Shown here: positions 23,151-62,474 of the stretch, piece by piece
Position numbering within the stretch: the first letter of the stretch is position 1
Layout: each line of letters starts with the position of its first letter
Assembly: GCF_014962245.1 (NCBI RefSeq)
Contig: NZ_CP063144.1
Span: 734,582 to 798,581, forward strand
Length of the DNA stretch: 64,000 nucleotides
Direction of reading: 5' to 3'
Source of the DNA: Thermosphaera aggregans
GTDB lineage: Archaea; Thermoproteota; Thermoprotei_A; Sulfolobales; Desulfurococcaceae
Position numbers and translations under genes: made by a program
Notes under the pieces: model-generated
Database searches by the model: none
What the model saw: only the letters and a program-made list of their open reading frames with translations
Told to the model about the DNA's origin: nothing

Positions 23151-24665
23151 ATGAAGCCTATTTGGCTACTCAGTTTCGAATCATACATGGTTAGGAAGGT
23201 TGGAGGCTTAGGCGAGGTTCCACCTAGGTTAGCGAGGGCGTTGCGCGAGAAAGGCTATGAAGCAATAGTTTTCACACCAAGCCATGGTGTGAAGCTCATT
23301 GAAAACGTGGAGGAGCTCTATTCCGTTAACATTCGTGGAGAGAATTATAGAATCTTAAGATACAGGGTTAACCCGGAGCATTTTGTAATCGAGGGCGGTG
23401 TTTTCAAGGATGAGAATGTCTACTCAGGGGGCCGGTTGCTGGAGAAATCAGCTGTTTTCGGCCTTGTAGTAAGTAGTTACTTGAGACATGTTGTTGAAAC
23501 AGGCTTTGACAAAGTACCTATTGTCATTCACGGGAATGACTGGCATAGCTACCCTGCCCTTCTCTTATCAAACATGTTAAAGGTTGAGAAGGGATTGAGC
23601 CTTAAACTTGTCTATCAGCTCCACCTACTCTCAAAGATGAAAATAGATTTAGACTTCTTCACAAGTGTTATTGGTGTTAGAATGCATGCTCCTATAACCG
23701 GTGTTGAAGGCGTTAAACCCTTTGAATACTACTTTAATAGAGCAGGAGGTTGGGTTGAAAAGCTAGCCTATCTTACAGTAGACCATTACGTAACCGTTAG
23801 CAATGGTTATGTGAAGGACGTTGAGAAGAATCTGGGATGGGAGACTGCAGGCAGGATAGATTATATCCCGAATGCGCTTGTATGGACATCGAAAGAAGTC
23901 TTCGACACAGTAGCGAAACATTACGATGTTAAGAATCCTCTAGACCCGGAGGAGCGGAAAAGAGTTCGGAGAAAGATATTAACCGAAGATATGGCCGGGT
24001 TTAAAGGCGTGATCACGGAGCCTCATGTTAAAGAATCTCTTAAATCCCTACTGGAACACTACGAGTTAGATAAGCCTAAAGCTTTCGACAAGGATGGCCA
24101 GCTCGTGTTCCTCTCGGGGAGGCTGGCAGGGCAGAAGGGATTGGACACCTTGCTTGGATCGCTGGAACGTATTATCGTTGAAAACCCGCGGGTTAGAATA
24201 GTCCTCGCGTACATTCCGGTTGAGGGAAGCGAGCCACTGATTAGAAAACTAGGCGAGTATCACTGGGCTTTTAATGAGAACTTACGGATAATAATAGGAA
24301 AGATGTCCCCAGAGGATTATATGTCGCTTTACTTCGCTGCTGATGCTTACCTTGTCCCCAGCCGGTATGAGCCTTTCGGACTCGTCGCTGTTGAATCATT
24401 GGCAGCTGGTACACCGGTGGTTGCCTCTTTCACGGGTGGATTGAAAGACATAGTAGTGGATCTTAGAGAAAACCCTGAAGAAGGGGTGGGGTTCTTAATA
24501 AGGCCTGGAAACAGGTTCGAACTTGCTGAAGCCGTCGTCATGCTTCTCGAGATAATGAAAAACCCTGCTAATCAGGAAAGAATAAGGCGTAACTGTGTTA
24601 AAAGATCTCAGGAGTTTTCATGGGAGAAATCAGCCGGCAAAGCCCTAAAAATCTACTTCTCCTAA
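23151..24665 (+). CDS. glgA: glycogen synthase (GT5)
   Basis: About 504 aa, GT-B fold. KVGGLGEVPPRLARAL is the N-terminal KxGGL ADP/UDP-glucose motif of GT5, HGNDWHSYPALLLSNML follows, and SRYEPFGLVAVESLAAGTPVVAS is the C-terminal E-x7-E nucleotide-sugar motif. It elongates alpha-1,4 glucan from a nucleotide-glucose. I start at ATG 23151 with GGTGGGA just before it; an upstream frame to 23115 would overlap the glucanotransferase. Together with the GH57 enzymes it forms a glycogen synthesis and turnover block. Confidence 0.9.
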   Translation: MKPIWLLSFESYMVRKVGGLGEVPPRLARALREKGYEAIVFTPSHGVKLIENVEELYSVNIRGENYRILRYRVNPEHFVIEGGVFKDENVYSGGRLLEKSAVFGLVVSSYLRHVVETGFDKVPIVIHGNDWHSYPALLLSNMLKVEKGLSLKLVYQLHLLSKMKIDLDFFTSVIGVRMHAPITGVEGVKPFEYYFNRAGGWVEKLAYLTVDHYVTVSNGYVKDVEKNLGWETAGRIDYIPNALVWTSKEVFDTVAKHYDVKNPLDPEERKRVRRKILTEDMAGFKGVITEPHVKESLKSLLEHYELDKPKAFDKDGQLVFLSGRLAGQKGLDTLLGSLERIIVENPRVRIVLAYIPVEGSEPLIRKLGEYHWAFNENLRIIIGKMSPEDYMSLYFAADAYLVPSRYEPFGLVAVESLAAGTPVVASFTGGLKDIVVDLRENPEEGVGFLIRPGNRFELAEAVVMLLEIMKNPANQERIRRNCVKRSQEFSWEKSAGKALKIYFS

Positions 24666-24722
24666 CATTTTTAACACACCTAGAGAGTAGAGTATGATTA
24701 AATCTAAGCGAAGGTTTTCCCA

Positions 24723-26606
24723 ATGAGTTCACTGGTGCTACCTAAATTACTGGATGGTTTAGAAGGATATATTGTGCTTAATAAGCCCGTATTTAGACCC
24801 GGAGAGGAAGGAAAAATACATTTGCTAGTAAAGGCGGTTGGGGGGTCGAAAAACGTTCACTACGCAATTTTCAATGGAAACGTTAAAGTACATGAAGGAG
24901 TTCTGACAGTTCCCGAGTCGCAAGCGAAAATCGAGATTATTCCATTCACTGCGGATGAGAAACCGGGAGAGTACGGCCTGGAACTGAGGCTTAATGACGC
25001 TCCTTTCGACACTGTAAGATACATTGTGACAGAGGGTTTCGACAGGATCCCTCTTCTTGGTTTCGTATGGCATCATCACCAGGCTCCAAACTATCTGCCA
25101 AACAGGGTGTTTCACTCTCCATGGGCTTTCATCTATGTGTACGGGGAGCAGTTGAAGCCGTATGGAAAAGGACCTTACCACTACCATGTTGAAATGTTTC
25201 AGAAACATAAGGATTACAAGGCGACATATAATCTAAGCCCCAGCCTTCTACAGCAGTGGCAGATGGCTATTGAGGAAGGCATCCTGTTCCACTCTGGCGA
25301 GAAGATCGAGAAGAGTGATGAGAGAATTAAGTTGATACAGGAAACGTTAAAACGTTATAAGCAATCCGTTAAGAGTGGGCAAATCGATGTCTTAACAAGC
25401 ATTTACGCACACACTATTGCTGGATTTATCTCAGGCGTTTTCAACGCGCAGGACATAGTCGCAGAGGAACTTAAGTACGGCCTAGAGATTACTAGGAAGG
25501 TTTTAGACGGGTATGACCCCCTTGGGGCTTGGACTCCTGAAATGTCTTTCTCAATGGATTTGGTTGATGTCTACTATGAAAACAGAATTGAATACACGGT
25601 TTTAGACGATCGCTGCCACTTCTACCCTGCAGAGGGCGAGAAGAACTCAAAGTACGAGCCATACCTTTTACTGAATTCATCAACTGGCAAGCATATAACA
25701 GTTTTCTTCCGGGATCATGAGCTAAGCGATATTCTTGGCTTCAAAAACAATTTTGAAAACGAAGTACATGCTTGGAGGAATGCATATGAGACATCATTTG
25801 TCATAGCGAGGAAAGTGGTGAGTGAGAAGCCCAAGATTCTCACTCTCGCGCTTGACGGGGAAAACTGGATGGTTTTCGCGAAGAATCCACCGCTTACAGC
25901 TTACTTCTTCGACAAGCTCCTGCTGTATTTAGAATCCCTGTATGATTCAGGCGTGCTGAAAATGGTTAGCTTAAGGGAGGCCGTGGAGAATGTTCCGGTT
26001 CGTAGGATTTTAACTAAAATCCCTCCCACCACCTGGCTTTGCACATACCGAAAGTGGAGAGGCCAGCATCCCGATCAAGAAAAGTACTGGGTGAAGGCTA
26101 AAGAGGCTTATTTACAGATCAAAGCCTACGAGTCCGCGGTAGGGGGTAAAGACGAATACAGTGGAGAAGCTAGATGGGCCATATGGCATGCTCTCGACAG
26201 CGATTACTGGTGGGCCGAGTTCTGGATGCCAAAAGTGATAGAAACCTGGATAAACGAAGCAGGCAGGATTATTGGGTCAAGATTTTCCCAGATAAATATT
26301 AGGCAGGTAATCATACCTTCACAGGTTTACGAGAACATCGAGTTCGAAGCGGTGGTTGAGGTGGAGAACAATCTTGAAAAACAGCTAAAGCTGGAATTGA
26401 TAGCTCTTCCATGCGCTGAAGAATATTGCATGGATAGAGAAATCCTGGTTAAGCCGAGAGGAGTGACTAGCTTCAACGTCAAGATGAGGCTTACACGTGT
26501 TGGGAAACAACCAATATTTATCGGCTTGTTAAAGAATAATATGATAATCACTAGTAAGATTGTTGAGGCAGAGGTGAAACCGTTTTTACCAGCGAGCCCT
26601 TCATAG
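24723..26606 (+). CDS. GH57 glycosidase, amylopullulanase-like, cytosolic
   Basis: 627 aa. An N-terminal beta domain (about 1-105, PVFRPGEEGKIHLLVKAV) precedes the GH57 barrel. FVWHHHQAPNYLPNR is region 1, GAWTPEMSFSMDLVDVY carries the nucleophile glutamate, and LALDGENWMVF the catalytic aspartate in the LDGEN form seen in amylopullulanases. A C-terminal beta domain (QINIRQVIIPSQVYENIEFEA) may bind glucan. There is no signal peptide, so it should act on intracellular glycogen, possibly as debranching enzyme. Start ATG, with ATTAAATC about 25 bases upstream as a weak TATA. Confidence 0.83.
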   Translation: MSSLVLPKLLDGLEGYIVLNKPVFRPGEEGKIHLLVKAVGGSKNVHYAIFNGNVKVHEGVLTVPESQAKIEIIPFTADEKPGEYGLELRLNDAPFDTVRYIVTEGFDRIPLLGFVWHHHQAPNYLPNRVFHSPWAFIYVYGEQLKPYGKGPYHYHVEMFQKHKDYKATYNLSPSLLQQWQMAIEEGILFHSGEKIEKSDERIKLIQETLKRYKQSVKSGQIDVLTSIYAHTIAGFISGVFNAQDIVAEELKYGLEITRKVLDGYDPLGAWTPEMSFSMDLVDVYYENRIEYTVLDDRCHFYPAEGEKNSKYEPYLLLNSSTGKHITVFFRDHELSDILGFKNNFENEVHAWRNAYETSFVIARKVVSEKPKILTLALDGENWMVFAKNPPLTAYFFDKLLLYLESLYDSGVLKMVSLREAVENVPVRRILTKIPPTTWLCTYRKWRGQHPDQEKYWVKAKEAYLQIKAYESAVGGKDEYSGEARWAIWHALDSDYWWAEFWMPKVIETWINEAGRIIGSRFSQINIRQVIIPSQVYENIEFEAVVEVENNLEKQLKLELIALPCAEEYCMDREILVKPRGVTSFNVKMRLTRVGKQPIFIGLLKNNMIITSKIVEAEVKPFLPASPS

Positions 26607-30322: not shown

Positions 30323-31941
30323 GGAGCAGCACCTCCCAGCTTCATAATGGCTGAGAATGTTTCGTAAACATATTTCAAGGCTCCCGTCAAGGACGTGGAT
30401 GTTAACTCGGTGTTCGAGACGAGTCCAAGCAAGGGGATAACCAATCCTCCCATCACTAATAAGGATATTGAAATAGCAAGCATCAATACTTCAACACTGT
30501 GACCTGTGTTCTCTAGTGATTTCTCGCTACCAATTGCGAAAACTATCGAGTACAGTGCTTTCAAGTACCCTGGGATCGACACTGCCGAGGCAATTATCAG
30601 GAGGACGCCTCCAATAGGGAAGCCGGCTTCCATATAGGCTTGATACATTAATAGCTTCGAGAAGAAGCCTATGAAGGGCACCAGGCCTATCAGGTTGAGG
30701 AATCCTATTGTGAAAGCGGTTGACGCAAGCGGATGTTTCCTGCCAATCCCTCTCATCTCATCCATGTTTCTGGTTCCAGCCGAGTCTATGAAGATCCCGC
30801 TGGTCATGAAGAGCAGAGCTTTTGAGACCCCGTGTGAGATTATGTGAAGGGCTGCAGCCGCTACTGCTAATTCGGTAACTCTTAAGGAGCTGGAGAATGC
30901 GGGGGCTGATAAAACCATGAATATTAGGCCCATGTGGCTCACCGTGCTGTAGGCTAGTAGTCTTTTAATGTCTTTCTGAATCATCATCATCAAGGCTCCG
31001 AGAAGGGCGCCTGCCACGCCGAGGATAAACAACGCTATCAGGACAATGCTTCTATACTCACCCAGCAGGCTTCCTTCACCGAAGATTGTATATAAGAATC
31101 TCATAGTAGCGTAAACGCCTATGTTAACAACCAGACCTGACAGGGCTGCTGAAACAGGGGTTGGAGCCTCGGGATGGGCGTCAGGGAGCCAGAAGTGATT
31201 GGGGAATAAGGCGGCCTTATAGGTGAAAACCCATAGGGAGAGAGCCACTGCGAGCAAGCTGGCGAGCCGGTAGACCTCAATGCTTCCCACAACCGGGACA
31301 ATTGAGAGGCATGATGGCGTTCTAGATAGGCAGGACAACACGCCCATGTTTAGGGAGCCGAATGTTGCGTAGACTACGACCAGGGCTGTGAAGTATATTG
31401 TGGTTGCAACAGCACCGATTAAAGCATACTTGGCAGAAGCTTCAACAGCCTCAGCCCTCTCCTTATGGAAGGCAACCAATCCATACGCTGAAATACCTAG
31501 TACTTCCAACATTACGAACAAGTTGAAAGCGTCGCCGGTGTAAAGGCATCCCAGCATTCCGGCGAGGAGGCCGATTAACAATACATGATACCATACAGGC
31601 TCGTCGAGGTGTCTACCATACCACAGCGAGTATAACGCGATAGCGAGGAATACCCAGGAGGTCATCAACCCTATTATACCGTTCAACCCGTCGACAGCGT
31701 AACTTATCCCGAAGTGAGGCGGCCACCCGCCGAACCCGTATATTATGGGTTTCTCATTTACAACTATCCAGTAGTACATTATACTGCTCGCTATTGATGC
31801 CCACGCGCCTGCTATAACGCTCATGAAACCTATTAGCTTCTTATTTCTGGTGAGCTTGTCAACTAGGGGGGTTGAAAAAGCGAGTAGGGCTAGGACCGGG
31901 ACCAAAGACCCTGTTAAAACGTGTGCAAGAGAGTCAACCAT
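30319..31941 (-). CDS. mbhH: membrane-bound hydrogenase subunit H (MrpD/NuoN-like antiporter)
   Basis: About 540 aa, around 14 membrane segments, the proton or sodium pumping subunit. The key glutamate is in AFNLFVMLEVLGISAYGLVAF (split over the window of segment 5), the key lysines in TYKAALFPNHFWLPDAHPEA (segment 7 and broken helix) and MMMIQKDIKRLLAYSTVSHMG. These are MrpD-type signatures. Start ATG 31941 follows AGGTGGTGGGA; GTG 31950 is also open. Coupled by overlap to mbhI. Confidence 0.9.
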   Translation of the reverse strand: MVDSLAHVLTGSLVPVLALLAFSTPLVDKLTRNKKLIGFMSVIAGAWASIASSIMYYWIVVNEKPIIYGFGGWPPHFGISYAVDGLNGIIGLMTSWVFLAIALYSLWYGRHLDEPVWYHVLLIGLLAGMLGCLYTGDAFNLFVMLEVLGISAYGLVAFHKERAEAVEASAKYALIGAVATTIYFTALVVVYATFGSLNMGVLSCLSRTPSCLSIVPVVGSIEVYRLASLLAVALSLWVFTYKAALFPNHFWLPDAHPEAPTPVSAALSGLVVNIGVYATMRFLYTIFGEGSLLGEYRSIVLIALFILGVAGALLGALMMMIQKDIKRLLAYSTVSHMGLIFMVLSAPAFSSSLRVTELAVAAAALHIISHGVSKALLFMTSGIFIDSAGTRNMDEMRGIGRKHPLASTAFTIGFLNLIGLVPFIGFFSKLLMYQAYMEAGFPIGGVLLIIASAVSIPGYLKALYSIVFAIGSEKSLENTGHSVEVLMLAISISLLVMGGLVIPLLGLVSNTELTSTSLTGALKYVYETFSAIMKLGGAAP

Positions 31942-31952
31942 TCCCACCACCT

Positions 31953-32462
31953 CTAGTCAAACATATTCCCAGCATACTTTTCAAACACTGAGGAAATTGC
32001 TTCACGAGCTTTCTCGGGCTCTAAGGTTTTAGCATCTATCCAGTGCACGTAAAAGACTTTCCCTTTTTCATCAACGTCTACAACGACCGTGCCAGGAGTA
32101 TTAGTTATGGAGTTCGCTATAGCTGTAATGGCGTAGTCTGTGGAAACATTGAACGGGACTTTAACTATTGCAGGGTTAACAGGGGTTTTCGGGTGGAGTA
32201 TGCGTTTAATAACATCCACATGGGCTTTTGTCTCATCGATGATTAGATATCTTAATGCATATATTACGAATAAGGCCCAACGCTTAGGGTTTAATGCTTT
32301 GCGAGGGTTGCTTAGCGTTATAGTGGAGAAAATAAAGCCGGTTACTAATGAAACAATTACCCCGGTGATTATGTCGTAAGTTGTGATACTGCCTGAGAAT
32401 ACAATGTAAGTTATAAACGCGATTAATGCAACAACTAAACCATTAACGATCTTCAAATCCAT
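31953..32462 (-). CDS. mbhA: membrane-bound hydrogenase subunit A (MnhE-like)
   Basis: About 169 aa MnhE/MrpE family. Three N-terminal hydrophobic segments (VNGLVVALIAFITYIVFSG, ITGVIVSLVTGFIF, ALFVIYALRYLI), then a soluble ferredoxin-like tail with ITAIANSITNTPGTVVVDV, the family motif. Part of the Mrp module. The start is ATG 32462 (GTG 32465 just upstream). It overlaps mbhG. Its place after G and before H differs from Pyrococcus, where it comes first. Confidence 0.85.
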   Translation of the reverse strand: MDLKIVNGLVVALIAFITYIVFSGSITTYDIITGVIVSLVTGFIFSTITLSNPRKALNPKRWALFVIYALRYLIIDETKAHVDVIKRILHPKTPVNPAIVKVPFNVSTDYAITAIANSITNTPGTVVVDVDEKGKVFYVHWIDAKTLEPEKAREAISSVFEKYAGNMFD

Positions 32463-44710: not shown

Positions 44711-44941
44711 TTAGCCACCTGAAAAAGGAGGTGTTAGAATTACCTCGTCTCCATCTCTTAAAACCCTGTCGAGCCCTGCTTTCTCCTTGTTGACGAAAAC
44801 TATTGGGGTGACCCCCCTGTACTCTAACCCGCCAAGAAGCATTTCAATCAAGTCCTTAACGGTTGAATAATCATTTATCTCAACAACTCCATCCCTGATT
44901 ATCTCGCTGAAAAGGGAGTATGCTCTTACATTAACTTTCAT
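44711..44941 (-). CDS. moaD: molybdopterin synthase sulfur carrier subunit
   Basis: 76 aa ubiquitin-like protein ending in PPFSGG, the C-terminal diglycine that becomes a thiocarboxylate. VRAYSLFSEIIRDG and DEVILTPPFSGG are the family ends. Start ATG 44941 (GTG 44944 directly upstream). It lies between moaC and moaE and overlaps moaC by one base. Confidence 0.93.
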   Translation of the reverse strand: MKVNVRAYSLFSEIIRDGVVEINDYSTVKDLIEMLLGGLEYRGVTPIVFVNKEKAGLDRVLRDGDEVILTPPFSGG

Positions 44942-45393
44942 CACACATCACCCTGGGGGGTCTTGACTTTAGAAAGCACTCTTACATCAGTGATTACTGT
45001 TTCAGGATACTGGCCTTTCTCATCCTTCTCGTATTTTTTCACCATATCCCATATGTTTAGTAACGCCGCAGTCGCTCCTACTAAAGCCTCCATTTCCACC
45101 CCTGTTTTAGCTGTGGTTTTAACGGTCACGTAAACCCGGATTCCTTCTTCCTCAATATTGAAGTCTACCTTAACGTTGGAAATAGGTATGTTATGCGTTA
45201 ATGGAAGTAGCTCAGGGGTTTTCTTCACCCCAAGAATTGCCGAGACGGATGAAACATCGAGAACGTTTCCTTTCTCTATTTTCCCGCTTTTTATAAGTTC
45301 GATAGTGCTTTTCTTAAGCTTGATGAAGCCGGTTGCGACTGCCTCGCGCTGGGAATCCGGCTTTCCCGAAACATCCACCATGTGAACGCTCAT
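44941..45393 (-). CDS. moaC: cyclic pyranopterin monophosphate synthase
   Basis: 150 aa. HMVDVSGKPDSQREAVATG at the N-terminus, LLPLTHNIPISNVKV with the active-site region, and VTVKTTAKTGVEMEALVGA, all typical of MoaC. It turns 3',8-cyclo-GTP into cyclic pyranopterin phosphate. Start ATG 45393, ATGA overlap with moaA, its pathway partner. The usual HP-x-CH histidine motif appears as LTHNIP. Confidence 0.93.
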   Translation of the reverse strand: MSVHMVDVSGKPDSQREAVATGFIKLKKSTIELIKSGKIEKGNVLDVSSVSAILGVKKTPELLPLTHNIPISNVKVDFNIEEEGIRVYVTVKTTAKTGVEMEALVGATAALLNIWDMVKKYEKDEKGQYPETVITDVRVLSKVKTPQGDV

Positions 45394-46310
45394 GACCGGC
45401 CCCTCGTAAAATAGGGTTTTCGAATAGAGACAGCCTTCTTGATTTTTTCAACTACTCCATACTCATCTTTATTCTTTAATTCCTTACTAATATCGACGAA
45501 CGGTTCTTCCAGGAAGATACAGGTTTTAATCCAGCCCTCCGGGGTGAGCCTTAGCCTGGTGCATCTTGCACATAAATCGGGGTTTCCATAACCCTTTATC
45601 ACGTTGACTTTTATACCAGATGGCAGAGTGTAAATGGGTCTGTTTTGAAAGTTAGATATTGTTATATTGGAAGAGATCCTGTGTAGTTTTTCAATGATAG
45701 GGTCAAGGCTTGTTCTCTGCTCGAGATATACATGGTGCGGCGTTCCAAGAGGAATGAGTTCAATGACGTTGACGTCAACCCCTTTTGATGAGGCGTACTC
45801 GATTATTTTTTCAAATTCTCCAAGGTTTATCTTCATCGCGAGAAAGTTTAGTTTTACCTTTATACCGTGGTCTAATGCTTGTTCAATTCCCTCAAGGATT
45901 AGCTTGACGCTACCCCTTGTACGAGTAATAGCTTGGTAAACCTCATCGTTTAGTGAGTGAACGCTTACGTTAAGCCCGTCGAGGCCCGCATCAGCAAGCT
46001 TTCCAGCTAGGTTTTTCAAAAAATACCCGTTTGTTGTCAAGGACACCTCTTTGGAATATTCTCGAATCCCTTTTATTATATCCGGGGTATCCCTTCTGAG
46101 AAGAGGCTCTCCCCCAGTGATTTTAAAGTACACTATTCCGAGTTTACGGGACACGTATGCGAGATACCGGTAATCGTCAGGGGTTAGCACCTCCGCTCTA
46201 TCTAAACCAGTTAAACCCTCCCTATGGCAAAAAATACAGTTGTAGTTGCATCTCATCGTGACAACTATTCTGAAGCTGTCCACCTCTCTTCCAAAACCAT
46301 CCCTAAGCAT
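45390..46310 (-). CDS. moaA: GTP 3',8-cyclase (radical SAM)
   Basis: About 306 aa. TMRCNYNCIFCHREG gives the CxxxCxxC radical-SAM cluster, ITGGEPLLRRD the SAM-binding GGEP, and NPDLCARCTRLRLTPEGWIKTC the second [4Fe-4S] cluster that binds GTP. The C-terminus ends RKPYFTRGRS and does not show the usual glycine-glycine tail, which in other MoaA proteins helps catalysis. Start ATG 46310 with GGGTGG; overlaps the transporter ATPase by eight bases. Confidence 0.93.
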   Translation of the reverse strand: MLRDGFGREVDSFRIVVTMRCNYNCIFCHREGLTGLDRAEVLTPDDYRYLAYVSRKLGIVYFKITGGEPLLRRDTPDIIKGIREYSKEVSLTTNGYFLKNLAGKLADAGLDGLNVSVHSLNDEVYQAITRTRGSVKLILEGIEQALDHGIKVKLNFLAMKINLGEFEKIIEYASSKGVDVNVIELIPLGTPHHVYLEQRTSLDPIIEKLHRISSNITISNFQNRPIYTLPSGIKVNVIKGYGNPDLCARCTRLRLTPEGWIKTCIFLEEPFVDISKELKNKDEYGVVEKIKKAVSIRKPYFTRGRS

Positions 46311-47439
46311 TCCATCCACCCGGCGCTCGTTTTTCTATTATCGAAACCGAATTCTCGGGGAGTATGAGAGTTAGACAATTCCCGGAAACCATGCTACGCA
46401 GTTTTTCCCATTCTCTCCGAAGTAGGTTTACTCGAACCTTTGATGAATCGATTTCCAATAGAAGTGTGACGTGATCGAATCTCTCAATTACCTCTAATAA
46501 ATTACCTTTCAAGGAGTTTACTTCAACGCTTTCACTACATCCGGGTGTTAACTTCGAGACAACGGGCGGGAATACGATATTCACTAGGCTTCCCTCAGCT
46601 AGTTTATTCCCTACGCTACCGCTAGTTGCTAAGACAGTCGACTTCCCTATTTCGACAAGATACTTGCCAGGTTTCATGATTTGTATAATTCTTCCCTCTA
46701 GAACGTTAAATCCCAGGGACTTCGCTAAGTACTCATTACTTATGGTTTCTTCCGAAAGGAAGGGAGAGTCATAAGTGAGCTTCCTACCGTTTAATACGAG
46801 TACTCTATCGTGAAACCAAAATGCGTCTTCAACATCGTGGGTTGCTATAATGGTTGTAATCTTCCATGAAGCTAGAAGCTTTTTCAACTCGTAGCGTATC
46901 ACGGGTTTGCTCGCTGGGTCGATAGAGGAGAACGGCTCGTCGAGTAGGAGGAGCTTGGGCTCAGCCACGAGGGCTCTGGCCAGCGCTACTTTCTGCTTTA
47001 ACCCGTTGCTGAGCGCTGGCGGCTTCATATTAGAATATCTCTCCAAGCTCATGAACTCTAGAATATCTCTAACTTTTTTCTCCTTCTCATGCCTGCTGAA
47101 AGGCTTCTTGGCAAGACCAAGCATTACGTTTTCCCACACGGTTAAGTGGTCGAGGAGGGCGTAGTCTGATGGCACGTACCCTATTTTCCTCAAATGAGGT
47201 GGAGCGTTAACAACTATACGTCCATCGCTTCTCCTGGTTTCGAAAACAGTGTTGTCATCAATGAGTATCCTACCTTTAAATGGGGTTATCAACCCCGCAA
47301 TGGCTTTAATTAGGGTGGTTTTCCCCGAGGCGTTAGGCCCCATTAAGACAGCGACCTCCCCCCTTCTCAATTGAAAAGAGATATCCTCGATGATTGGAAC
47401 GTTATTGAAGACTACTGTTAACTCCTCTACTGTAAGCGT
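46303..47439 (-). CDS. molybdate/tungstate ABC transporter ATP-binding protein, unusual start
   Basis: About 355-378 aa. Walker A GPNASGKTT, signature LSNGLKQKVALARAL, Walker B LLLLDEPFSSIDP, switch IATHDVEDAFW, then a regulatory C-terminal domain of about 130 residues, as in ModC/WtpC. The first normal start codon is TTG 47370, but the same frame codes for a good N-terminal beta strand upstream (LTVEELTVVFNNVPIIEDIS), needed for the fold. Back to the permease stop (TGA 47446-47448, same frame) there is no ATG, GTG or TTG. GGAGAGGTGA precedes an ACG at 47439, which I take as the most likely start. Confidence 0.82.
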   Translation of the reverse strand, partial: TLTVEELTVVFNNVPIIEDISFQLRRGEVAVLMGPNASGKTTLIKAIAGLITPFKGRILIDDNTVFETRRSDGRIVVNAPPHLRKIGYVPSDYALLDHLTVWENVMLGLAKKPFSRHEKEKKVRDILEFMSLERYSNMKPPALSNGLKQKVALARALVAEPKLLLLDEPFSSIDPASKPVIRYELKKLLASWKITTIIATHDVEDAFWFHDRVLVLNGRKLTYDSPFLSEETISNEYLAKSLGFNVLEGRIIQIMKPGKYLVEIGKSTVLATSGSVGNKLAEGSLVNIVFPPVVSKLTPGCSESVEVNSLKGNLLEVIERFDHVTLLLEIDSSKVRVNLLRREWEKLRSMVSGNCLTLILPENSVSIIEKRAPGGWNA

Positions 47440-47445
47440 TGAAGC

Positions 47446-48216
47446 TCACCTCTCCAGTATGCTGGTTAAGAACAGGATTAAGTAAGCTATGAGTACATAG
47501 CTGGATAAGGCATAAGCCAGTAGCACGATGTCTCCATATTGATTTATAAAATATAGTGCTATTGGAAGCGTAACAGTCCTCCCTCTGATCCCTCCCCCGA
47601 GAATTAGGGAGGCTCCGAAGTCTCCGAAGGCTCGTGCGAAAACGAGGAGCGCTCCCGACACAACTTGGGGTTTTAAAGAAGGGAGAAAAATCCTGTACAA
47701 TGCTTCTAATCTCCCGTATCCAAGAGTTCTAGCAACTTCCTCCAGGGATGGCGGTATCGTCTTGAAGAGTGCAGTGAAATATATCAACGCGATTGGGAAG
47801 GCGAGAAAGCTCTGTGCTAACACGATCCCCTTGAAATCGTTCACGATTTCAAAGGAGTCGTTGAGCGTTCTCCCGAGGGGGTTTTTCACAAGGAAGATTA
47901 GTAGTATTAAACCGCTGGCTGATGGGGAAAGGATGTAGGGTATACTTAGGAGTGCCCTCAAAGCATGCTTTCCCTTCAAATTCTGCCGTGAGAACCAGTA
48001 AGACACTGGAATGCTGAGCATCAACACTACCAGCGTTGTTATTAACGATGTTTCAACCGAGAGTATTGTGGAATCCCTAACCTCCTTAAACAGTTCAGGA
48101 TTAGACGGGAGGCTTGAAATCGACAAGTAAAACACTGTTGCCAAAACTATTAATTCAAATGCTATTATGAATCCTACTACCAGGCTTAGAGGAGTCAACT
48201 CACCCACGAGCCCCAC
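47446..48216 (-). CDS. molybdate/tungstate ABC transporter permease
   Basis: 256 aa, about five or six membrane segments, ModB/WtpB family. EVARTLGYGRLEALYRIFLPSLKP is the EAA loop that docks the ATPase, and AFGDFGASLILGG follows as in molybdate permeases. Start GTG 48216; GTG 48207 behind GGTGGGG is an alternative. It overlaps the binding-protein gene by 17 bases and ends with a TGA in frame with the ATPase. Confidence 0.88.
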   Translation of the reverse strand: MGLVGELTPLSLVVGFIIAFELIVLATVFYLSISSLPSNPELFKEVRDSTILSVETSLITTLVVLMLSIPVSYWFSRQNLKGKHALRALLSIPYILSPSASGLILLIFLVKNPLGRTLNDSFEIVNDFKGIVLAQSFLAFPIALIYFTALFKTIPPSLEEVARTLGYGRLEALYRIFLPSLKPQVVSGALLVFARAFGDFGASLILGGGIRGRTVTLPIALYFINQYGDIVLLAYALSSYVLIAYLILFLTSILER

Positions 48217-49072
48217 CCATGTAGCATGCTGGCGGAATGGGCCATTGAAAATCAGTGTAAGGGGTAATATTCTTTAAATCCTCGATTGCCTGAAAATACC
48301 CCAGTTTACGCATTTCACTGTCCATCCTTGCTTTTTCAAGTATTGTTTTTAAAACTCTTTCTGCTAACTCTGGGTTTTTACTGGTTTTTAAAACACCTAT
48401 TAATTGACAATCGATCCCAGGTATTTCAGTAGGGTCGAGCCAGACAATATCTGTCTCGCCGGGATACCAGTAGTAGATGAAATGGTAAGCTATGGCAACA
48501 TCTACAAGACCAAGTGAAACCTGCTTCGCAACCTGGGTGGCATCTGCCAGGATGATCAAGCGATCCTTGACGGCTTCGTAAACTCCATTATACTTTAACA
48601 GGTTCACGGCCATTTTACCGGAGGGGGCAGTTTCCGGGTCTGCAATCGCGATCTTGACTTCTTTTGCGACGAGGTCTTGGAGGCGGGTGATATTGGAAGG
48701 GTTGCCTTTAGGGACTATAAGTGCTGGAATGGAGTAGGAGACTAAGAACACCTTGTCACCGTAAACTAACCCTTCCTCCAGCATGGCTCTCATGTACTCG
48801 GAGTCAGCGGAGCCGAAAACGTCTCCCTCTCCTGAAAGCCTAATCCTGGTTATAAGCGAACCTGTTGGTTGAACATACACGGTGATCTTGTAAGCCGAGG
48901 AGTCGGAGTTGAACTGGTCTATGTAGGGTTGCAAAGGCTTGTAAAGTGAAGGAGGCAGTAGGAACAGTATTTCCTCAGGTTTCCCGACTGGTGCCAAGCT
49001 AGGGTATATTATAATGTACGCGATGAGAATTAAAGTGATCAGGCTTAAAAACAAGTAAGCGCGAAACGCCAC
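48200..49072 (-). CDS. molybdate/tungstate-binding protein (ModA/WtpA family)
   Basis: 290 aa. N-terminal hydrophobic segment (about 5-25, AYLFLSLITLILIAYIIIYP) acts as signal or anchor. Ligand-binding fold: VYVQPTGSLITRIRLSGEGDVFGSADSEYM, IAIADPETAPSGKMAVNLL and VDVAIAYHFIYY are ModA-family blocks. It catches oxyanion outside the cell. Metal preference (Mo or W) cannot be told; hyperthermophiles often use W. Start GTG 49072 behind GGAGGGTAGC. Confidence 0.85.
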   Translation of the reverse strand: MAFRAYLFLSLITLILIAYIIIYPSLAPVGKPEEILFLLPPSLYKPLQPYIDQFNSDSSAYKITVYVQPTGSLITRIRLSGEGDVFGSADSEYMRAMLEEGLVYGDKVFLVSYSIPALIVPKGNPSNITRLQDLVAKEVKIAIADPETAPSGKMAVNLLKYNGVYEAVKDRLIILADATQVAKQVSLGLVDVAIAYHFIYYWYPGETDIVWLDPTEIPGIDCQLIGVLKTSKNPELAERVLKTILEKARMDSEMRKLGYFQAIEDLKNITPYTDFQWPIPPACYMGGARG

Positions 49073-49085
49073 GCTACCCTCCCTC

Positions 49086-50081
49086 TTAGAGCTTCATTTT
49101 CTCCAAGAAGTATTTAGAAATCCCGCCTTCCCCCAGTTCCGCAATATACTCCCTCGAGGGCTCCGTGTTTGACACTATCCATGGTAGAATAACGTCGAGT
49201 ACGTTGTACTCTGGAAAGTGAATGATCCCGCTGGAAACACCTAAGATTGCCTTATCGTTTTTATAGGCGAGCATGGACATGGTTGTGGGCTTTATTGGTA
49301 TTCCGTAGAAGACTACCCTATCAGCTACCCTAGCTATAGCTAAGGGAGTTTTATCGGTGGGGTCAACGCTCATACCGCCTGAAACAACCACCACATCCGC
49401 TACTTCGACAGCTTCCAGAATATTACGAACAATCTCATCCTCATCGTCACGGGACTGGGCGTAAAACACGACTGAACAATCAAAACGCTTAAGCTTTGCT
49501 TCAATAATGGGTCCTGCGAGATCCTTCTTCAACCCGTCAATTATTTCATTTCCTGTGACAATGATTCCAGCCTTCTTAGACACTGCTGGCTTAACTGAAA
49601 CTATAGGAGTTTCCATCTTCACGTCTTCCAAGAGCTTATTGAACGAGCTCCTGCTTATCTTCAATGGGACCATGTCAATAATACCTATTAAGCTGTTTTC
49701 GCGGACGAATGAACCTGTTTTCAGAGTTATCAATAAAAATATGCCTGTTGAGTTTACCTTCATCAAGCCTGCGCGATTGATTCTTACTAATCCCTTACTT
49801 CTTGCAAGTAGGAATGCTTTTCCCTCGCTTTTTAAAACAACCTCGACGTTTTCACCAGCAATGTATTTTCCAAACTCAACAACCGCTACATCCTCCCACA
49901 GCCAATCCGTATCCTCCTCTTCAACGAAAACGTAATAGTGACCGTGTTGCTTCATGAGCTCAACATGTTCTTCCTTAATAACCTCCCCCTTCTTCAAAAT
50001 TGGACCTTTAAACTCCGGGGTTACAGCAGAATAGTCGTGAGCCGCCCTCAACCCTACTGAGTCCTCAATTATTTTCAACAT
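49086..50081 (-). CDS. molybdopterin-binding protein (MoeA/CinA-like MPT domain)
   Basis: 331 aa. The C-terminal part has the MPT-binding fold: GIIVTGNEIIDG, DVVVVSGGMSVDPTDKTPLAIA (GGxSxxxxD/T type) and a late SSGIIHFPEYNVLD. The N-terminal 160 residues (LRAAHDYSAVTPEFKGPILKKGEVI) resemble the MoeA-linked domain with a sandwich fold. It may insert metal into or hold molybdopterin. Start ATG 50081 with AGGAG. First gene of the Mo/W operon, behind a long inverted repeat. Confidence 0.82.
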   Translation of the reverse strand: MLKIIEDSVGLRAAHDYSAVTPEFKGPILKKGEVIKEEHVELMKQHGHYYVFVEEEDTDWLWEDVAVVEFGKYIAGENVEVVLKSEGKAFLLARSKGLVRINRAGLMKVNSTGIFLLITLKTGSFVRENSLIGIIDMVPLKISRSSFNKLLEDVKMETPIVSVKPAVSKKAGIIVTGNEIIDGLKKDLAGPIIEAKLKRFDCSVVFYAQSRDDEDEIVRNILEAVEVADVVVVSGGMSVDPTDKTPLAIARVADRVVFYGIPIKPTTMSMLAYKNDKAILGVSSGIIHFPEYNVLDVILPWIVSNTEPSREYIAELGEGGISKYFLEKMKL

Positions 50082-60950: not shown

Positions 60951-62474
60951 TTAGAAGAGTTCTTCATCTTGAACATAATCCTTGCCGAGCTTCAAGGCTG
61001 TCTTGGCTTTCCAAAGCTCTCTACCAAGATAGTAGAAGTGTTCAGGGGCTGAGGCAAGCTTCCTCTCAAGTATTTCATTAATTATCGCAGACGGATCAGT
61101 CCCTAGTATTGTAATGCTCGGCTTACTATCTCCATGCTTATAGTGTTCTACGATTATTGCTTCCTGATCGTGGTCGACATATATTTTAAAGTACCCAGAG
61201 GGGTCTGCTTTAAGAGGGTAGGGTCTGGAGGCTTTAACAGGGTTTACCAGCTCCTGGGGCTTCAAGCCTCTCCTCTTCTTGCTTTTACACACTAGTAAGT
61301 TGACAGAGAAATCTTTCGGAGGCTTTTCCATTTCTCTAGCAAGCAGGGCCATATCCAGTGCTTTCCTAAACTCTCTGACCGAGTACGAGGTTTTAGCACT
61401 TTCTTCCGTGACAAGGAACAGGTCTACTCCTGCCTCAACCCCGATACTGGCTAACACAGCGTTTACTCCAATACTGTCAGCATCTATCAACTCTGTGAAA
61501 TTGCTGACCCCCATCAATATCGGATAGCCCGGAAACTCCTTCCTCGCTGTTTTAAACGCATACAATGATTCTATAAATGCTTGCTGAGGAGGGTTTAACA
61601 CCGGGTCCAGGATAATTTTTCCGAATCCTTTATCAATAGCATGTTTTAAACCCGCTCTTAAGCTTGAGATCTTGTCTCCGACAGTGGTGGAGAACGGGTC
61701 TGGGATTAGGACTACGGCTGTTTTTCGAAATTCCTCCTTGGGATTGAAATGGAGTATTGAGTCAGCTGGGAAGCTTAAAAGAATATCGACTTCTCCATCG
61801 CTAAGGGAGCTGAAATCCTCGTATTTGAAATAGTCTAACCCCACCGGAATGTTCAACAACCTCTTAACCTTTTTTGAATAGTCTGCTACAACATCTAAGG
61901 GGAGACGGCTGGACCCAATTACCAGTATGTCGGAACCGTGAGATACTAGTCTATGTGCCTTGGAGGCGATTGTGTCAAAATCCACCTCCTCATTCACGAA
62001 AACCTCGCCCATTATTAAAGGATATTTAGGCGAGACCGGTTTTCCACCAACCTCAAAACAAGACTTGGTAGCTTCTCTCCTTAATTCAGCAAGAATAATC
62101 TCCTCTCTCCTCTTCTTCTCCTTGCTCAATAATTCATCTAGCGGGTTAACCGTTGACAACTCTCCGCCTTTTTTCAAATATTCAACTAAGATGGGAATGT
62201 CATAAGCATACAAGCACCCCTTGTAAACGGGCTTCCCTAACTTCTTAGCCACGTCTTTTAAATCCCCTTTCGTGAAGCCTGGTGCTATTATTATGTCTGC
62301 CCACTCAATGAGCTCAGGGTATCGGGGTAGCTCCCGTGTTAAATACTCGCTAGTCATCATTGCGGCTATGGGAATAGGGAGCGATAAAACCTTGGCTTCT
62401 ACATCTGAAAGCTGTTTTACAATTTTCTCCAAGAAGGGTTTTGCCACCATCCCTGTTACGAACAAAATCTTCAG
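60951..62474 (-). CDS. dihydropteroate synthase-like protein (MJ0107 type), probable CTG start
   Basis: About 507 aa. N-terminal domain (about 1-130) of the DUF6513 type, then a pterin-binding TIM barrel: HGSDILVIGSSRLPLD, IILDPVLNPP, YPILMGVSNFTELIDADS. It probably couples the pterin unit to the aryl-ribose of methanopterin. The first usual start is TTG 62465, but the family begins LKILFVTG and the frame starts with CTG 62474 giving exactly that. CTG overlaps the upstream stop as CTGA, with GGTGA six bases before. Cotranscribed with the three genes upstream. Confidence 0.82.
   Translation of the reverse strand: MKILFVTGMVAKPFLEKIVKQLSDVEAKVLSLPIPIAAMMTSEYLTRELPRYPELIEWADIIIAPGFTKGDLKDVAKKLGKPVYKGCLYAYDIPILVEYLKKGGELSTVNPLDELLSKEKKRREEIILAELRREATKSCFEVGGKPVSPKYPLIMGEVFVNEEVDFDTIASKAHRLVSHGSDILVIGSSRLPLDVVADYSKKVKRLLNIPVGLDYFKYEDFSSLSDGEVDILLSFPADSILHFNPKEEFRKTAVVLIPDPFSTTVGDKISSLRAGLKHAIDKGFGKIILDPVLNPPQQAFIESLYAFKTARKEFPGYPILMGVSNFTELIDADSIGVNAVLASIGVEAGVDLFLVTEESAKTSYSVREFRKALDMALLAREMEKPPKDFSVNLLVCKSKKRRGLKPQELVNPVKASRPYPLKADPSGYFKIYVDHDQEAIIVEHYKHGDSKPSITILGTDPSAIINEILERKLASAPEHFYYLGRELWKAKTALKLGKDYVQDEELF

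Follow-up and report, generated by a model that had tools for sequence, protein, structure and literature searches.

Probable near-cognate start codons in Thermosphaera: an ACG behind a strong Shine-Dalgarno sequence in an oxyanion transporter ATPase gene

In Thermosphaera sp. strain 3507, the ATPase of an oxyanion-type ABC transporter is very probably a separate protein of ~378 amino acids (aa) that is initiated at a near-cognate codon, the ACG at positions 47437-47439 (minus strand) of the 64-kb window, the whole stretch of 64,000 nt analysed here. The gene lacks a canonical start codon, its N-terminal segment is coding, the Shine-Dalgarno (SD) sequence in front of the ACG is strong and normally spaced, the junction with the preceding permease gene is conserved, and the same design recurs in other genes. 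About ten Thermosphaera genes, a ribosomal protein gene included, appear to start at near-cognate codons with a strong SD alongside.

The upstream gene (47446..48216, minus strand) encodes a ModB-like ABC permease with matches to TIGR01581 and TIGR02141, both below cut-off. It ends with the codons CTG GAG AGG TGA (L E R, stop). Past this TGA (47446..47448), the same frame continues with GCT TCA ACG CTT ACA GTA GAG GAG TTA ACA GTA GTC TTC and stays open as far as the stop at 46303. The ATPase gene (46303..47439, minus strand; PF00005) has 378 codons counted from the ACG. Reading of the open reading frames bore out two observations of an earlier note on this DNA: the permease stops at TGA 47446-47448 and the ATPase follows in the same frame, and neither ATG nor GTG nor TTG occurs in the ATPase frame between the permease stop and a TTG at 47370. 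The sequence that the note had placed just before the ACG is indeed there; it reads GGAGAGGTGA and lies directly 5′ of 47439-47437.

The heptamer GAGGTGA (47446..47452, minus strand) in front of the ACG is a 7-nt SD match whose final three bases form the permease stop codon. The corresponding anti-SD GGATCACCTCCT, in the 16S rRNA 3′ end sequence, is present in the genome. If spacing is counted as the nucleotides after the GGTG core, the ACG lies at spacing 7. For ATG-first genes of this genome whose SD is 5 nt or longer, the spacing distribution has maxima at 5 and 7, the latter being the most frequent. Computed duplex energies are -12.0 kcal/mol for the SD of the ACG, -5.9 kcal/mol before TTG 47370 and -10.5 to +1.2 kcal/mol before five neighbouring genes. 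The arrangement GAGGTGA-N6-ACG occurs once in the window, while 100 dinucleotide shuffles gave a mean of 0.09, nine of them containing one match or more. Because of these chance matches the motif is weak on its own, and the comparative data carry the case.

The 23 codons from the ACG up to the TTG are genuinely coding and align with other ABC ATPases. Between strain 3507 and T. aggregans this segment has accumulated 3 synonymous and 2 non-synonymous changes, giving a dN/dS of 0.17 (from few sites), against 0.16 in the rest of the gene and 0.16 over the whole gene. Structure prediction places strands at residues 2-11 and 14-24, in a block with pLDDT of 91-95. Alignment, dN/dS and predicted strands thus uphold the view of the earlier note that an ABC ATPase-type N-terminus follows the TGA. 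They also bear on a start at TTG 47370 (47368..47370, minus strand), which would yield a protein without the first 23 residues and which we regard as highly improbable. This TTG is the first canonical start codon in the ATPase frame, and TTG opens 28 of the 87 canonical genes with SD spacing 7. It is, however, residue 24 counted from the ACG, so that both N-terminal strands would be lost. These strands are conserved, the aromatic residue of the A-loop region would go with them, and the part removed is under purifying selection. Moreover, the SD before the TTG is weak and badly spaced, and none of the relatives examined begins there. We therefore rejected it as the true start, in agreement with the note, which had considered it a poor one. 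Further inside the gene, an ATG at 47343 has an SD-like stretch (-11.3 kcal/mol); initiation there would remove part of the ATP-binding loop.

The genome of strain 3507, the host of the window, is a single contig of 1,305,106 bp obtained by Illumina sequencing (PMC7729421), and that of T. aggregans M11TL, with 1,316,595 bp, was sequenced by 454 plus Illumina (PMC3035292). The average nucleotide identity (ANI) between them is 83.2% and the average amino acid identity 86.5% (PMC7729421). In T. aggregans the junction reads GAGAGGTGA GCA TCA ACG CTT GCA GTA, a layout identical to that of strain 3507 including the ACG. A third Thermosphaera genome, whose ATPase shows 52% aa identity, has two successive TGA codons at the junction, AAAGGTGATGA ACC ATC CTA CTT GTG, with ATC at the aligned site; the GTG three codons past the ATC may be its start instead. 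Comparison of related genomes, proposed in the earlier note as a search for ATG at the position of the ACG, showed ATG at the aligned site in four more distant relatives (MLEV, MLVVES and similar), and ACG and ATC in the two other Thermosphaera genomes. Residue 4 counted from the ACG aligns with residue 4 of the Methanosarcina acetivorans ModC 3d31. Because the relatives and ModC 3d31 align in this way, the ACG is where Met1 should stand. A search of genome contigs for related loci returned distant ABC ATPases only.

The shared frame of the two genes, with a single TGA between them in strain 3507 and T. aggregans, had suggested in the earlier note that the TGA might be read through to give a permease-ATPase fusion. 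We found no support for this reading and assign it a very low probability. The TGA sits inside the SD, and a GGTGA at spacing 7 always yields an in-frame TGA three codons before the start. The same-frame relation between the permease stop and the ATPase is hence a by-product of the SD. In nine other genes with near-cognate starts such a TGA ends no detected upstream gene, so that readthrough cannot explain those genes; conversely, the coupled TGA of the ATPase layout recurs in 5 of the 87 canonical genes with spacing 7, all of which have an ordinary start. The tandem TGA TGA of the third species departs from the conservation of a single stop that is specific to readthrough. Reported stop codon readthrough in archaea concerns selenocysteine and pyrrolysine (PMC8211752), and no sign of either was noticed here.

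Less probable still is a pseudogene status of the ATPase gene, or its expression by frameshifting from an out-of-frame GTG overlapping the permease stop. The GTG in GAGGTGAGC does open a frame of 15 codons in both close species, but the 378-codon frame is intact with a whole-gene dN/dS of 0.16, no base run typical of frameshift sites was seen there by eye, and the third species differs in sequence at this place. Although one T in place of the middle base would turn the ACG into ATG, the sequencing or assembly error considered in the earlier note is the least credible explanation, because the ACG is common to strain 3507 and the independently sequenced T. aggregans (PMC7729421, PMC3035292), and many other genes behave alike.

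We also observed that the permease-ATPase stretch (46303-48216) has ~96% or more DNA identity to T. aggregans versus an ANI of 83%. For the ATPase gene the DNA identity is 96.4% with a dS of 0.11, far above the genome average. Such identity suggests recent exchange or unusual constraint. If the locus was exchanged recently, as may be the case, the ACG of T. aggregans counts only in part as independent support with regard to selection; as evidence about sequencing error it remains independent.

Initiation at the ACG, the remaining option of the earlier note, is supported by the Met1 alignment, the strength and spacing of the SD, the conserved junction and the parallel genes. No canonical start fits, a codon one base off ATG stands at Met1, and the SD before it is normally spaced. 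ACG would be expected to initiate weakly. We infer initiation at this codon with insertion of Met and coupling to permease translation. Ribosomes would terminate permease synthesis at the TGA, the overlapping GAGGTGA would hold or re-recruit the small subunit and thereby place the ACG in the P site, and the initiator Met-tRNA would be accepted on the ACG despite the middle-base mismatch. If it is accepted there, the ATPase should begin with Met (predicted N-terminus MLTVEELTVVF). Haloferax provides an established archaeal example of termination-reinitiation at gene pairs that lie close together (PMC10666635), and stronger SD sequences have been reported to compensate for weaker GUG and UUG starts (PMC5622118). 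For S. solfataricus, aIF1 has been reported to select against non-canonical starts (PMC8211752). Loss of this factor was considered as a cause of the near-cognate starts and rejected, as both Thermosphaera and relatives possess aIF1. A tRNA scan detected one Met(cat) tRNA only.

The recurrence of this design was surveyed in ~1.26 Mb of strain 3507 against 1.2 Mb of T. aggregans, with the third species covered to 0.4 Mb. The codon behind an SD upstream of the first canonical start was recorded for non-overlapping coding genes, shadow open reading frames having swamped an unfiltered version. CTG, ATA, ATC, ATT, ACG, AAG and AGG were counted as near-cognate. In strain 3507 alone, near-cognate codons accounted for 25 of the 63 non-canonical ones at spacing 7, versus 71 of the 509 at control spacings (p = 3e-6). 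Requiring the SD in both species left 17 near-cognate codons and 24 others at spacing 7, versus 29 and 260 at the controls (p = 2e-6). At a background of 10%, ~4 of these 41 codons would be near-cognate by chance, hence ~13 are in excess. The signal emerged only once the counts were split by spacing; pooled over all SD spacings they were uninformative. Some of the genes listed by the survey are noise, and AAG and AGG themselves contain SD-like letters. The hits at 1882 (near the 16S rRNA 3′ end), 320817, 946761, 993370, 1191852, 460864 and 817612 were excluded as noise or as ambiguous.

Given in the order strain 3507, T. aggregans and, where covered, the third species, the candidate start codons are ACG/ACG/ATC for the oxyanion ATPase and ATC/ATC/ATA for rpl12, encoding ribosomal protein L12/P1 (genome positions 412199-412519, plus strand), in which no canonical start follows for 53 codons. 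The tRNA-intron endonuclease gene EndA (615621-616196, plus strand) has ACG/ACG/ACG and lacks a canonical start over 111 codons, and the gene of a FAD-binding molybdopterin dehydrogenase subunit (1133885-1134769, plus strand) has ATA/ATA and lacks one over 62 codons. ATA/ATA also occurs in an unassigned gene at 251502-251921, ATA/ATC in a PolB1-binding-protein-2-like gene, and ATT/ATT/ATT, behind an SD of the GTGAGGTG type, in a protein gene without Pfam match (661188-662645, minus strand). Within the window, a TIGR00284 (dihydropteroate synthase-like) gene at 60951..62474 (minus strand) has CTG at 62472-62474, as in T. aggregans, with a GGTGA SD at spacing 7; its residues 1-506 match positions 1-497 of the 497 profile positions, residue 1 falling on position 1. 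For a phosphoesterase the codons are CTG/TTG/ATG, so that one position alternates between canonical and near-cognate. KsgA (ATA/ATA) is a weaker case, since the family profile also accommodates initiation at a TTG, residue 19. As a separate observation, a HemK-like methyltransferase gene (genome positions 31775-32422, plus strand) and a Dph2-like gene (genome positions ~24505-25530, minus strand) are without a clear canonical start near the conserved N-terminus; no well-placed SD was found for either of them.

To follow rpl12 across relatives, 61 genomes of the order were examined for the L12 pattern (M)EYIYA, and the codons were taken at the located L12 places. The first codon was ATC in 15 genomes, ATA in 15, ACG in one and ATG in 9. 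Within the family of the host the counts were ATC 15, ATA 10 and ATG 3, hence ATC or ATA in 25 of the 28 genomes in which the motif was read. In a wider sample of the class, one large family had ATG throughout where the L12 motif was read. Most members of the host's family have GGTG-N7 before the ATC or ATA of L12. For strain 3507 and T. aggregans, the predicted L12 N-terminus under the ATC reading is MEYIYASLLLYK or EYIYASLLLYK. This kind of start was already known, because a 2009 paper found Staphylothermus marinus L12ae (Smar_1096) to be without a valid start codon and inferred an apparent ATC start (PMC2678158). Our literature search returned few papers on archaeal non-AUG starts and none treating near-cognate starts as a wider phenomenon. 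Among 61,358 reconstructed prokaryotic AUG starts, the very rare switches to codons other than ATG, GTG and TTG comprised 2 from AUG to CUG and one from AUG to AUU (PMC5622118), and according to a review elongation and termination were the only stages for which non-canonical translation had been demonstrated in Archaea (PMC8211752). The extent of near-cognate starts in Thermosphaera appears undescribed so far.

A broader reading, which we put forward tentatively and hold to be somewhat short of probable, is that start choice is relaxed or regulated lineage-wide in Desulfurococcaceae and neighbouring families. About 1% of the genes, including the essential rpl12, would keep ATC, ATA, ACG, ATT or CTG behind a strong, 7-nt-spaced SD over deep evolutionary time, possibly tuning or autoregulating expression. 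Such a lineage-wide set with a ribosomal protein in it is more interesting than a single ATPase gene. If true, near-cognate starts conserved in one archaeal lineage would offer a natural system for start-codon checking by a eukaryote-like initiation apparatus, and gene callers restricted to ATG, GTG and TTG would truncate or miss genes here, a ribosomal protein gene among them.

The bacterial infC gene has a conserved near-cognate AUU start with an SD, and this AUU serves the autoregulation of IF3. The ATPase gene resembles it in combining a conserved near-cognate start with an SD, while the regulatory role is that of infC. Work of Baudet from 2010, as cited in PMC3219674, is said to have identified non-canonical initiation codons in Deinococcus deserti by proteomics. 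That organism is a bacterium with proteomic support, whereas the Thermosphaera starts are candidates proposed from sequence. The L12ae gene of S. marinus is like the ATPase gene in having no valid start and a near-cognate codon at the aligned Met, within the same family (PMC3035292). It differs in that one gene was mentioned in passing, with ATC rather than ACG and without SD analysis or survey (PMC2678158). The archaeal termination-reinitiation pairs are likewise adjacent genes for subunits of one complex, with only a few bases between stop and start, but they use canonical starts, and near-cognate codons were only discussed as rare (PMC10666635).

The transporter itself is a candidate molybdate/tungstate-type system, judging from its genes and their neighbours. 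The substrate-binding protein (48200..49072, minus strand) belongs to the ModA family (TIGR01256, 70.3 bits versus a cut-off of 62.5). The ATPase scored 171.7 of the 440 bits for WtpC and 138.6 of 285.05 bits for ModC, the permease 149 of 182.6 bits for ModB and 112.5 of 340 bits for WtpB. Because ATPase and permease fall below these NCBIfam equivalog cut-offs, molybdate and tungstate are candidate substrates. Upstream lies a gene for a MoeA-like protein with a molybdenum cofactor synthesis domain (49086..50081, minus strand; TIGR00177, below cut-off). The next gene downstream of the ATPase encodes MoaA (45390..46319, minus strand; NF001199, above cut-off), and MoaC (44941..45393, minus strand; NF008999 and TIGR00581, above cut-off) and a MoaE-like gene are likewise found downstream. 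Compared with ModABC and WtpABC, the Thermosphaera locus differs in its ATPase and permease being below the equivalog cut-offs, with the ModA-family protein above, and is alike in gene order, domains and the neighbourhood of molybdenum cofactor genes.
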